Source: an uncultured Bacteroidota bacterium
GTDB taxonomy: Bacteria; Bacteroidota; Bacteroidia; Bacteroidales; P3
DNA: 42,280 nucleotides
Direction of reading: 5' to 3'
Assembly: GCA_902783595.1 (NCBI GenBank)
Contig: CACZRR010000037.1
Location: 1 to 42,280 of the forward strand
The notes under the pieces are model-generated. The model was not told where the DNA came from, did not search any database, and worked only from the letters and a program-made list of their open reading frames with translations. The position numbers and the translations under genes were made by a program. How positions within the stretch are numbered: the stretch's first letter is position 1; the number at the start of each line of letters is the position of its first letter. This document shows, in pieces, positions 22,594-27,120 of this stretch.

Positions 22594-24939
22594 TTAGAAA
22601 TCATGAGAATTGATAGGTGTGGTGGTGGGAACGCCGCGCACCCCCCTTTTGCTCTCTTTGATGATGCTGTGATCGGCCTTGTAATCCAACGTTTCGCCAC
22701 GTCGCGGTTTGCGTATGCCAAAATAGCTCTTGTCGAGATGCAGGCGGCGTGTGCGTAGTGTGTGAGTGGTGAAGTCTAGTATCCACTCAGGATCGAACGA
22801 CAAGTAGAGAAAACGGCACTCGAAGTGTAGATGGGGCCCGGTACTGTTGCCAGTGTTGCCACCGAGGCCTATCACTTCGCCAGCCTCTACATGCTGGTTG
22901 GTCCGCACATTGATTTTTGAGAGGTGCCCATAGAGGGTCTCTAACCCATTGGGGTGCCGCAGCACGATACAGTTGCCGTAGCCTCCCATGCGTGACGCCA
23001 CGCGTACCGTACCTCCGAATGCTGCATGCACAGGGTCTCCGGTACGCAGGCTGATATCCACACCATGGTGGCCACGTTGCCAGCGCCAGCCGTAGTTGGA
23101 GGTCTTGGACCCCAGCACAGGGAAGCAGAACTCCCCACTATCGTGCACAAGCTGAAGATTGATCTCGTCAGGCAACGACTCTATATGTGTGCGTCCGTAG
23201 GGGTTGACGCGGTGCGAGGGAAAGGCGTCGTACCACAACGGCGCCAGCTCGGGGGCAAGGGGGGAAGGGACGCTACGGGCACTTTCTTCAGCACCGCCTT
23301 GTTGGCTGGCTGCCTGCGTGCGCCGCGCCTCCTGCTGTTTGGCAACCTGCCGTCGTGAGACCTCTGCCTGGGCCTGCTGCCGCCGCTCTTCGCGCTGCTC
23401 CAGCAGCCGCGAACGCTCCAGACGTGCCGCTATCACAGAGTCGTAGTAGGAACTCTGTGCCGATAGGCTCCCAAATGAAGATGTTGCAAGCAGCAGCACG
23501 ATGCCTACGATACGCCGCAGACGGGCTACAGGAATGCCTAACAACTCGCGGTATTTGGCTACCGTGCGACGCGCTATGGGCAACCCCTGGCTCTGCAGCA
23601 GACGGGTGAGGGCGTCGTCAGAAAGCGGCTTATGCTTGTCCTCTCCCTCTATGGCGGCCATAAGACGCTGTTTGGCAGACTCGACCGACACCTCCTCGCC
23701 AGCTTCGTTAGCGAGACCTAATGAGAAGCAATCCTTAAGAGGAATAGTCCCAAAGGGAGTCTGCAGATATTTGCTATTGGCCATGCGTGAGATGGTGCTG
23801 ATATCGAGACCTGTGGCTTCTGCCACCTCTCGTTGGCGTAGGGGCTGCAATAGATCGGGGTTGCCGGTGAGCAAATAGCGGCGTTGATGTTTGATGATGT
23901 AGCTCATGACGCGCGCAATGGTGTTGTGACGCTGCTGTAGCAGGTCAATAAAGCTTTGCGCATCGCCCTGTTTACTGCGTAGGAAGTTGATGGTCTCTCG
24001 GTCACCATGGCGCTTCTCAAGATCGGCCAGCATGTCAGTATAATAGCTGTTGAGACTCAGTCTTGGTAAGTGACCATCATTGATGAAGAAACGAAGGACA
24101 CCGTCATCATTCTGGAGTATGATGTCGGGAATGACGGGGGTGGCAGCCATGGTGCTCTCGGACTCCGAACTGCCGGGTTTGGGATTCAAACGGCGTATGA
24201 GTGCTGTGGCTTCGGCAAGGGTGGCGTTGTCAATAGACAGAAGACTCGCCAAACGGTCGTAGCGGTGGTTGGCAAAATCATCGAAATGATCGCTTACGAT
24301 GGTTGTGGCCAACTGTAGCGTCGCAATGTCAACATCGCTACCACTATTGTCAATTTGCTTGCGTTGCAACTGCAGCAACAGGCATTCCTGCAGGTTGCGG
24401 GCACCGATGCCAGGAGGATCAAGACGCTGGATGAGATGTAGCACCTCAAGGGCTTCGGATTCCGTCACCTCGATATTGTGGCGGAAGGCCATATCATTGG
24501 CTATTAATGCCAAATCGCGGGCTAAGTAGCCTGCGTCGTCGAGGCTGCCAATAATCTCGTCGGCAATGAGGCGCTGGCGCTCATTAAGAGAGAGGTTGAT
24601 GAGCTGTGACGAGAGCCTGTTAGAAAAGGACAGGGCATCGGCTACAACATATTCGCGGCGTTGGACGTTGGGATCGCGCTCCTCATGCTCGCGATAGTTA
24701 TAAGAACCGAAAACATCGTCATCCTCGTCGCTATCCCAGTCGGAATGGCTGTTCTCATCAGCAACAAGAGTGTCGATGTCTTCGGTGTCGGGAACCTCGG
24801 CATCAAGGAGCGGGTTCTTTTCTATCTCCTCCTTGATGGCCTGTTCCAGTTCGGTGACAGGCAACTGCAGCAGTCGCATGAGCTGTATCTGCTGCGGTGA
24901 TAATTTCTGCTGCAGTTGCTGTCGCTGAACCTGTCTCAT
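22594..24939 (-). CDS. rpoN: Sigma-54 factor RpoN fused to a periplasmic M23 peptidase
   Basis: One uninterrupted frame of 781 codons. Residues 1-~475 are a full sigma-54: activator-interacting region (QLQQKLSPQQIQLMRLLQLP), an acidic linker (~residues 50-85), the core-binding region, the HTH (REVAEATGLDISTISRMANSKY), and the RpoN box ARRTVAKYRE (456-465) followed by the normal end LLGIPVARLRR (466-476). Instead of stopping, it runs into a 17-residue hydrophobic helix (477-493) shaped like a signal peptide (cleavage candidate LSA494-Q495). Then come a coiled-coil Arg/Gln/Glu stretch (~505-550) and an M23 domain with zinc ligands H624...D628 and H703-L-H705. So the sigma part would be cytosolic and the peptidase periplasmic. 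An internal CTG at 23520 (Leu474) would give a normal-looking signal peptide (RRIVGIVLLLATSS). It follows the S46 gene by six bases. Confidence 0.9.
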   Translation of the reverse strand: MRQVQRQQLQQKLSPQQIQLMRLLQLPVTELEQAIKEEIEKNPLLDAEVPDTEDIDTLVADENSHSDWDSDEDDDVFGSYNYREHEERDPNVQRREYVVADALSFSNRLSSQLINLSLNERQRLIADEIIGSLDDAGYLARDLALIANDMAFRHNIEVTESEALEVLHLIQRLDPPGIGARNLQECLLLQLQRKQIDNSGSDVDIATLQLATTIVSDHFDDFANHRYDRLASLLSIDNATLAEATALIRRLNPKPGSSESESTMAATPVIPDIILQNDDGVLRFFINDGHLPRLSLNSYYTDMLADLEKRHGDRETINFLRSKQGDAQSFIDLLQQRHNTIARVMSYIIKHQRRYLLTGNPDLLQPLRQREVAEATGLDISTISRMANSKYLQTPFGTIPLKDCFSLGLANEAGEEVSVESAKQRLMAAIEGEDKHKPLSDDALTRLLQSQGLPIARRTVAKYRELLGIPVARLRRIVGIVLLLATSSFGSLSAQSSYYDSVIAARLERSRLLEQREERRQQAQAEVSRRQVAKQQEARRTQAASQQGGAEESARSVPSPLAPELAPLWYDAFPSHRVNPYGRTHIESLPDEINLQLVHDSGEFCFPVLGSKTSNYGWRWQRGHHGVDISLRTGDPVHAAFGGTVRVASRMGGYGNCIVLRHPNGLETLYGHLSKINVRTNQHVEAGEVIGLGGNTGNSTGPHLHFECRFLYLSFDPEWILDFTTHTLRTRRLHLDKSYFGIRKPRRGETLDYKADHSIIKESKRGVRGVPTTTPINSHDF

Positions 24940-24945
24940 TCTTTT

Positions 24946-27120
24946 TTATTTCACTATCTCCATCTCAGCAATGAGATTCTTGGCACCGGCATAGACGTCA
25001 ATGACCCAGAGCATGTAGCGGCTATCAAGGCATATGCAGCGCTGCAGGTTCTCTTCAAAGTCAATGTCACCGCTCATGGCTTCGCTGTTGCCGTCGAAGG
25101 CCAAACCAATAAGCTGGCCGTGGGCGTTGATGACGGGAGAACCGGAGTTGCCACCAGTGATGTCGTTATTGGTGATGAAGCAGGTGGGAAGCTCGCCACG
25201 GGAGTTGGTGTAAGTGCCAAATTCTTTGTTCATGTAGAGCTTCTTGAGGCGCTCGGGAATGGCAAATTCACTGCTCTCGGGATCCTCCTTCTCAATGACG
25301 CCTCGCAGGGTGGTGTAGTAGTGATAGGAGACACCGTCGCGGGGATCATAGGACATCACGTTGCCATAGGTGAGACGGATGGTGCTATTGGCATCGGGAC
25401 AAAGGAAGCGCTTGCCGTCGTTGATCTGCAGGATGCCATCGGTGAAGTCACGAATACCGCGCTCAAGACCGTCGGCGGTCTCCTGAGGCAACGCTTGGTT
25501 CACCTCTATGTATTTTTCATAGGCACTCTGACCGGCGAGGTAGATGGGGTCTTTGGCAAGCTTTTTAAGGTCGGGCTTATCCATGAATTTGGCGAAGGAT
25601 TCCTCGGTGGAGAAAATCGATTTCTTGAAGAGTTTCTCAACGTATTCTCCAAAATTGCCTTTGTATTTTTTGCCTGCAGTCAGGAGGAATTCAGGCATGT
25701 AGGTGGCATCCATGTGCGAGTAGACGTGGGCCAGCAGACCTGCCATTACGCGCTTCTCAGTGGCGACATTATAGTCCTTGTAAAAGTCGGCAGCTTTTTT
25801 CTTGACTCCCTCAATGATAGCCTCGCGGTAGTCAGCATAGTCGGGACGCTCGGCAGCGTTGAGGTTGTTGTATACGCGCACAGCCTGCAGCAGCAGTTCG
25901 GGACCCGTGAGGAGACCTTCGACGATGTACTGATTTGCGGCCTCAATCTCTTTGCGGGCAGCATAGCCTTTCTCAATGAGCTCAAGGGCGCGGAGATACT
26001 TTGAATTGGTCTGACGCGAAGCCCATTCTTTGTAGTTCTTCTCCACATTTTTCTTCACCTCCATGGTGTTGAGGGCCTTGAGGGCTTTGTTCTGCTCGTT
26101 GCTGTATTTCCAATAGTTGGAGCAGGAGGCATACTTGGAGGCATATTTGATACGTGTGGCTTGGTCGGCAGCCATCTCTTCGCGGAGAATCTTGATCTTT
26201 ACATCACGTATCTCGTAACGCAGTTTGTTGGTGATATTCATGGTCTCCTCAAGACCATAAGAAGTGAGGAAACGATCGGTGGTGCCAGGAAAGCCCATCA
26301 CCATGGCGAAGTCGCCATCGTGTATCTCTCCACTGCTCACAGGCAGGTGGTGCTTGGGTTTGAGAGGCACATTGTCTTTGGCATATTCGGCGGGACTGCC
26401 GTCGGGAGCAGTGTAGATGCGGAAGAGTGAAAAATCACAGGTGTGACGGGGCCAGGACCAGTTGTCGGTATCACCACCGAACTTGCCCATGGACGAAGGT
26501 GGAGCTCCCACCAAGCGCACGTCTTTGTAAATGATGTGCACGAAGAGGAAGAACTGGTTGCCGTTGAACATGGGAATCACCTTGGCGGCATATTTGCCAC
26601 CCTCGGTATTGGCATCGGCTATCTTGCTGCTGATCTCATCGATGGCTTTCTGACGCTCCTGCTCACTCATGGCGTCGTTGAGTGCCCCCTTAACCTCTTT
26701 GGTGACATCCTCTATGCGCACGAGAATGGATGCAGTGAGACCGGGATTGGGAAGTTCCTGATCAAGACTGTAGGCCCAGAAACCATCGCGCAAATAGTCG
26801 TGCTCCACGGTGGAATGCTCTTGCAGCTTCCCATAGCCGCAGTGGTGGTTGGTACTCATAAGACCCTGCGTGGAGATAATCTCTCCAGTGCAAAAATGCC
26901 AGAAAGGCTGTCCGTCGTTGCCAAGACCCACGATGGCATCCTTGAGGCAGCTCTGATTGACGTTGTAGATGTCCTCTGGGGTCAGTTTAAAACCGGCTTT
27001 TTGCATCTCCTGGTAGTTCTTGCCAAGAAGAGAAAGAAGCCACATGCCTTCATCGGCGCGTACTGCGTTGGGCAGTAGCAACGTCATCGCTAAGACGACT
27101 ACTAATGTGCGGATTTTCAT
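24946..27120 (-). CDS. S46-family dipeptidyl-peptidase, DPP7-like
   Basis: A 724-residue periplasmic serine peptidase that releases dipeptides from peptide N-termini, the feeding route of asaccharolytic Bacteroidota. Signal peptide residues 1-22 (cleavage near VRA-D). The chymotrypsin-like halves carry the catalytic His in STNHHCGYG (His93), an Asp in GGDTDNWSWPRHT, and the nucleophile Ser659 in GGNSGSPV. The residue 18 after the Ser is Gly677 (FDGN), where DPP11 enzymes have the Arg that selects Asp/Glu; Gly points to DPP7-type, broad or hydrophobic P1 specificity. That assignment is inference from spacing. It leads the operon with RpoN-M23, ribH and fmt. Confidence 0.92.
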   Translation of the reverse strand: MKIRTLVVVLAMTLLLPNAVRADEGMWLLSLLGKNYQEMQKAGFKLTPEDIYNVNQSCLKDAIVGLGNDGQPFWHFCTGEIISTQGLMSTNHHCGYGKLQEHSTVEHDYLRDGFWAYSLDQELPNPGLTASILVRIEDVTKEVKGALNDAMSEQERQKAIDEISSKIADANTEGGKYAAKVIPMFNGNQFFLFVHIIYKDVRLVGAPPSSMGKFGGDTDNWSWPRHTCDFSLFRIYTAPDGSPAEYAKDNVPLKPKHHLPVSSGEIHDGDFAMVMGFPGTTDRFLTSYGLEETMNITNKLRYEIRDVKIKILREEMAADQATRIKYASKYASCSNYWKYSNEQNKALKALNTMEVKKNVEKNYKEWASRQTNSKYLRALELIEKGYAARKEIEAANQYIVEGLLTGPELLLQAVRVYNNLNAAERPDYADYREAIIEGVKKKAADFYKDYNVATEKRVMAGLLAHVYSHMDATYMPEFLLTAGKKYKGNFGEYVEKLFKKSIFSTEESFAKFMDKPDLKKLAKDPIYLAGQSAYEKYIEVNQALPQETADGLERGIRDFTDGILQINDGKRFLCPDANSTIRLTYGNVMSYDPRDGVSYHYYTTLRGVIEKEDPESSEFAIPERLKKLYMNKEFGTYTNSRGELPTCFITNNDITGGNSGSPVINAHGQLIGLAFDGNSEAMSGDIDFEENLQRCICLDSRYMLWVIDVYAGAKNLIAEMEIVK

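Follow-up and report, generated by a model that had tools for sequence, protein, structure and literature searches.

σ54 is normally controlled through its activators. Membrane-bound σ factors are already known in the ECF family: PMC5411451 describes IutY of Pseudomonas putida as a fused σ factor which is released by Prc and RseP, and further ECF σ factors with C-terminal membrane parts (ECF48, ECF52 and ECF53) are treated in part of PMC8999054. The E. coli σ32 needs SRP-mediated bringing to the membrane for its proper control (PMC3866087). In the Bacteroidota, σ54 has already been linked to GroES, GrpE, DnaK, Hsp90 and ATP-dependent proteases (passages of PMC12316311). No report of a σ54 fusion was found in the open-access literature by title or abstract, in agreement with the preceding sequence-only reading of the DNA analysed here, which knew of no described σ54-peptidase fusion. 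The words 'fusion' and 'peptidase' are absent from the main text of PMC12316311, as are 'Bacteroid', 'fused', 'fusion' and 'peptidase' from PMC3162934.

The window, i.e. the whole 42,280-nucleotide stretch of an uncultured Bacteroidota bacterium that was analysed, carries an rpoN frame which runs without a stop into an M23 peptidase domain (Table 1), and the σ54-M23 fusion proposed from the letters alone was thus confirmed as a true in-frame fusion. The RpoN part is complete, including the RpoN box, as had been claimed: three Pfam domains cover it, the NCBIfam rpoN equivalog TIGR02395 matches the fusion ORF with 394.9 bits (cut-off 277.35), and all four Pfam domains of the ORF lie above their curated cut-offs. 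In the RpoN box, A456, R457, R458, T459, Y463 and R464 are invariant in 43 of the 43 aligned fusions. The same holds for H624, D628, H672 and H703-L-H705 of the M23 part (HxxxD ... H ... HxH), and the His and Asp positions are also unchanged in all 29 sequences of another alignment. We take these positions to be the zinc ligands, the full set of which the earlier reading had seen; the M23 part is a predicted peptidoglycan-type peptidase. Behind the RpoN box, the order is LLGIPVARLRR, then IVGIVLLLATSSFGSLSA and, after the predicted cut, QSSYYDS, which bears out the suggestion that the junction merges ARLRR with the n-region of a signal peptide. A complete S46 peptidase gene (24946-27120, minus strand) lies directly upstream of the fusion.

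Table 1 Features of the rpoN-M23 fusion in the window
Feature	Coordinates	Strand	Basis
rpoN-M23 fusion ORF	22594..24939	-	781 aa/codons, ATG at 24939, TAA at 22594-22596
σ54 region I / activator-interacting domain, residues 2-46	24802..24936	-	PF00309 Sigma54_AID, E 1.3e-13
σ54 core-binding domain, residues 98-300	24040..24648	-	PF04963 Sigma54_CBD, E 1e-52
σ54 DNA-binding domain, residues 319-476	23512..23985	-	PF04552 Sigma54_DBD, E 1.4e-45
RpoN box ARRTVAKYRE, residues 456-465	23545..23574	-	translation; AF2 helix 457-466
Junction and internal signal-peptide-like segment ARLRRIVGIVLLLATSSFGSLSA, residues 472-494	23458..23526	-	apolar run and [AGS]Q; AF2 helix 472-491
Variable linker with conserved S-YYDS-type motif, residues 495-622	23074..23457	-	alignment of relatives
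M23 peptidase domain, residues 623-710	22810..23073	-	PF01551, E 4.8e-31, 107.3 bits

Among 47 distinct PDB sequences matched at E ≤ 1e-10, the best stretches were confined to one part of the protein or the other: the σ54 chains stop by residue 477 and the M23 chains start at residue 597 or later, except one starting at 496. Foldseek also matched σ54 chains and M23 chains separately. In an AF2 model based on a 43-row alignment, the σ54 part was well modelled, with a loop between the two helices listed in Table 1 (10-residue pLDDT means of 70-74 with the second one), whereas the M23 half was poor and the pTM was 0.45. The coiled coil of the earlier reading has a counterpart in the window protein (AF2 helix 496-535) but is not conserved, the relatives having K/A/P-rich linkers.

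The genus, a large one of uncultured Bacteroidales, was scanned in 120 genomes, 116 of which gave a match at E ≤ 1e-50 (the other four gave none at this threshold). One uninterrupted RpoN and M23 frame was found in 85 of the 116, separate neighbouring rpoN and M23 genes in 29, and rpoN with no M23 gene beside it in two. The split count includes L066, in which the rpoN frame is broken and the match ends at residue 388, two loci in which another gene separates rpoN from M23 (L050 and L056) and one which starts at a contig edge (L068). Six fused genomes gave two rows each, which are two stretches of one frame, and no second rpoN was found in the fused genomes at E ≤ 1e-50. The fusion is also present in the public records ONJY01000004.1 (isolate RUG377) and CACYIK010000011.1 (RUG11969), which probably correspond to two of the 85 and add no extra cases. 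The window protein is 44-67% identical to 42 aligned relatives. A missed stop or an indel at the junction had been a worry, and the source genomes are indeed mostly drafts in many contigs. Nevertheless, the recurrence of this unbroken frame in 85 of 116 genomes, each at species level, rules out chance or a sequencing or assembly error, and the probability that the fusion is an artefact is in our view negligible. A search of relatives for the same architecture had been proposed, and a stop codon between the parts in close relatives, or proteins that are always separate, had been named as evidence against the fusion; separate genes exist in the 29 genomes given above, and the 28 of these placed in the RpoN tree fall outside the fused clade.

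Beyond the genus, a scan of 393 genomes of the order (E ≤ 1e-110) gave no further full-length fusion at a threshold which would miss a case like that of G204 described below. A scan of the phylum with TIGR02395 detected rpoN in 178 of 178 genomes; among the matches listed, only the frame of the window exceeds 700 aa. The next, of 642 codons, belongs to another member of the class (G626:C6:2586-4010) and might be another extended σ54. From 70 genomes of other genera of the family, 20 loci were fetched, chosen partly for long frames. One is fused, 12 have a separate M23 gene nearby, and none was seen near rpoN in the remaining seven.

The continuous frame with an intact σ54, a signal-like segment with A-Q and a complete M23 domain is, as read from the sequences, common to a large clade. 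A quick RpoN tree (LG+G4) was built from 135 rows: 85 fused, 28 split (L066 was omitted), two without M23 and 20 from other genera, the latter comprising all 19 unfused loci and the fused L205. All fusions of the genus fall into one clade of 87 rows (SH-aLRT 88, not starred) which includes both M23-less rows; the fusion is thus present in 85 of 87 clade rows, the split rows branch outside, and the fusion in the genus looks like the product of a single origin. The link of RpoN to M23 is dispensable, since it is missing from L063 and L069. L063 has a long branch and a tail of the unfused type (RLRKEL) and may be misplaced, and L069 ends with LRRTH; in both, rpoN is followed by a ribH-like gene (assigned by eye). 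In an M23 tree of 36 rows the fused rows were not gathered, and the branches mostly lacked strong support. The fusion L205 (G204:C45), from another genus of the family, has the same layout, with ARLRK-GFFLALFLFIFNFISFGQ at the junction. Since both the RpoN and the M23 part of L205 group with the unfused relatives of its own genus, the layout appears to have two origins, of which the second is seen in this one genome. The tail of L205 behind M23 is LysM-like by eye. In the split relatives, M23 begins with a start of its own and the two genes adjoin or overlap, with an ATG overlapping the rpoN stop (ATGA) in six loci (L053, L054, L058, L059, L067 and L068). In five loci (L203, L208, L211, L050 and L056), the gene for a membrane protein about 200 residues long stands between rpoN and M23, which suggests that its loss brought these two together; Pfam gave no match for the one such protein tested.

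The σ54 part of the fusion looks functional, judging from its domains above cut-off, the single rpoN match in G000 (the genome of the window, which is 80% complete), the presence of a GAFTGA-loop activator and an excess of -24/-12 sites. PF00158 matched in all 120 genus genomes, weakly in some, and the one G000 match better than about 6e-9 is a 402-aa protein (L220:1633-2841, minus strand, G000:C40) with an AAA+ domain (12-182) and a Fis-type HTH (358-398). Its gene sits between dnaG-like and aroA-like genes. This activator has no N-terminal regulatory domain, a layout which is presumably PspF-like, and the σ chain itself is therefore a plausible place for control. The pattern TGGCAC-N5-TTGC occurs 13 times in G000, against once for the reversed pattern and five times for a spacing one longer. 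Similarly, in 23 genomes of the genus, 20 of which are fused, TTGGCACNNNWWTTGC gave 63 matches and the control 3; a further set gave 23 and 2, respectively, in 29 split genomes and 20 and 3 in 14 fused ones. Both sets include G014, which had no matches. Fifteen of the 63 matches come from G016; 13 of these lie within frames of more than 200 codons and look like chance.

We inspected 78 sites (47 of the 63 and 30 of the 43 in the two sets, plus L237, which lacks the first T). Twenty-five of them, 22 from fused and 3 from split species, stand before genes of proteostasis type, and 10 of these 25 fall within another frame of more than 200 codons. The genes preceded by sites include clpP, mrp, lon, secA, htrA-type, groES, dnaK, hsp20 and htpG, and in the fused relatives chaperone, protease and secA genes are represented; a clpC-like gene and htpG have such sites in split species too. 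The families ClpP, Mrp, Lon, SecA, HtrA-type, Band_7, thioredoxin, Cpn10, Hsp70, Hsp20, ClpC-like and HtpG were confirmed for examples, and the genes on which Pfam or NCBIfam was not run were named by eye; L229, a short htpG-type fragment of G000, had no Pfam match at 1e-8. In L231, L237 and L258 of G000 and in the loci of its relatives, chaperone, protease, mrp and secA genes have -24/-12 sites in front of them, which suggests a σ54 proteostasis regulon in the genus. Such a regulon is nothing new, nor is it bound to the fusion, since such targets are known for σ54 in the Bacteroidota (passages of PMC12316311) and the sites are also found in split species.

The segment that follows RpoN resembles a signal peptide, as the sequence-only reading had described it, and carries an A-Q motif of the Bacteroidetes type. 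According to passages of PMC5837995, signal peptidase I of Bacteroidetes exposes Gln in most of its substrates (the Q-rule), and an apolar core followed by [AGS]Q was detected with a simple scale and motif in all 85 fusions and in 28 of the 29 split relatives. A basic n-region, apolar core and [AGS]-Q site, as in substrates of signal peptidase I, are combined in each of the 85; the segment departs from such substrates in starting at about residue 472 and not at the N-terminus. The cut is predicted between A494 and Q495, at the LSA-Q site pointed out earlier. In 77 of the 85 fusions Ala occupies position -1, and in 36 position -3 has Leu instead of the ideal small residue. The apolar run has a median of 14 residues in the fusions (range 8-19, with one of the 85 reaching 19) and of 16 in the split relatives. 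Cleavage is favoured over a permanent anchor because the apolar segment is short and [AGS]Q is present throughout. The proposed topology, σ54 inside and M23 outside, is coherent with the sequence.

From these features we infer export, cleavage and a membrane location of the fusion products, and we put at slightly better than even the chance that the fusion is a natural polyprotein, in which the only σ54 found in the genome would be made as one chain with an M23 enzyme, exported through Sec and cut by signal peptidase to leave σ54 with a membrane tail. On leaving the ribosome, the segment after ARLRR would be delivered to the Sec channel. The M23 part would cross the inner membrane and be freed as an enzyme by signal peptidase I cutting before Gln, and σ54 would stay in the cytoplasm, held at the membrane by a hydrophobic tail of about 20 residues. 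This tail starts about 5 residues past the RpoN-box helix, and because of the short loop between them the tethered form would probably bind promoters poorly until the tail is trimmed, e.g. by an RseP-type site-2 protease. The one M50/S2P gene of G000 could serve this step, and E. coli RseP is known to remove signal peptides (PMC8144685). More speculatively, the success of export might set the ratio of tethered to free σ54 and so couple the proteostasis/envelope regulon to secretion. A direct role in sensing export or proteostasis is plausible; the specific proposal that export-coupled cleavage reports secretion capacity, with the enhancer-dependent σ54 sensing export and folding by linkage and driving a chaperone, protease and SecA regulon, is tentative and rather doubtful.

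The same sequences are also explained by a polyprotein that is exported, cleaved and trimmed as above with no regulatory meaning, a tolerated accident of an adjoining or overlapping gene pair. As a sub-case of the processing model, its probability overlaps with that of the latter; we consider it possible, though well short of probable. Adjoining or overlapping genes in the split relatives, the two lineages within the clade that lack M23, and the activator and promoter sites of split species would be expected of such an accident, whereas its persistence in 85 of 87 clade rows at 44-67% identity (42 relatives) and its having apparently been made twice would not. It is unlikely that the chain stays uncleaved, joining σ54 and M23 across the inner membrane as a bitopic protein and freeing the σ factor only by regulated proteolysis answering the state of the cell wall. 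The topology would suit such a protein, the ECF σ factors with C-terminal membrane parts are a precedent, and Leu at -3 is in its favour; on the other hand, the apolar run is short for it, [AGS]Q is kept in every fusion, and the free M23 proteins of the split relatives have the same kind of signal.

The formation of two proteins from one message, with a further start for M23 within the frame close to the junction, which would make the fusion partly formal, is likewise improbable. The CTG at 23520, offered earlier as a start, is the codon of Leu474; it is CTG in only 47 of 85 fusions, codon identity drops around it, and it was rejected. Identical-codon use at shared residues was measured in 10-codon windows over 45 close fusions. 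It averages 0.57 (sd 0.06) in the rpoN part examined and is raised to 0.79 by the true rpoN start, but falls to 0.44 and 0.31 in two windows at the junction. The linker is low as well, with three windows at 0.39-0.43 and one at 0.55, so the drop is not peculiar to the junction. Leu codons alone gave 0.30 near the junction against 0.45, but Val codons from -10 to +20 are more alike (0.64 against 0.51), for which codon 471 probably accounts: of the 40 Val codons at this position in these 45 fusions, 33 are GTG. This lies within the range of GTG use at their other conserved Val codons (0.37-0.90), and the share of GTG at 471 in the remaining 40 fusions (15 of 27) equals the background of 0.55. 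Codon 471 is ATG or GTG in 50 of 85 fusions, where MARLRR... would be a good n-region, but GTA in the window; 24 fusions have ATG or GTG only elsewhere within codons 466-479, and 11 have none there. In a 16-codon stretch directly behind the RpoN box, 49 of the 85 have no ATG, 12 no ATG or GTG, and 7 no ATG, GTG or TTG. Although split relatives sometimes overlap by ATGA, the AT content just upstream is low in the fusions and high before the split M23 starts (16 of 29 split loci with a usable ATG). A single chain is thus favoured, given the missing conserved start codon and the codon use less conserved at the junction than in rpoN; a GTG start at Val471 is possible in many fused relatives, not in the window.

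The sequence-only reading is thus borne out in its in-frame fusion, topology, junction and LSA-Q site, but not in its CTG start or a conserved coiled coil. Under the favoured polyprotein model, a signal for export and an enzyme of the cell-wall type would be part of the σ factor chain itself, and a stress-response switch could thereby be coupled directly to protein export; the fused, split and M23-less natural versions in related species make the question directly testable. Like canonical RpoN (TIGR02395), the protein has three domains, an RpoN box and a score above the cut-off; unlike it, the chain lacks the customary KEL-type end and runs on into an export segment and an M23 part about 290 residues long. 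The unfused M23 orthologues of the genus share the domain, its invariant residues and the [AGS]Q type of site, but have their own start and n-region. Chaperones and ATP-dependent proteases are likewise targets of σ54 in the Bacteroidota (passages of PMC12316311). The case of E. coli σ32 (PMC3866087) is an analogy of working only: a heat-shock σ factor is brought to the inner membrane by the export-targeting machinery, but it is unrelated, has no canonical signal sequence and is not fused. With IutY and the ECF σ factors (PMC5411451 and PMC8999054) the fusion shares an N-terminal cytoplasmic σ factor, a membrane segment and a periplasmic domain in one chain. Those are, however, σ70-family factors with anti-σ or carbohydrate-binding parts, whereas here Pfam and NCBIfam give RpoN only for the σ part, followed by a signal-peptide-like segment and M23. 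The σ54-M23 protein would thus be a variation on the membrane-tethered σ factors known from the ECF family.
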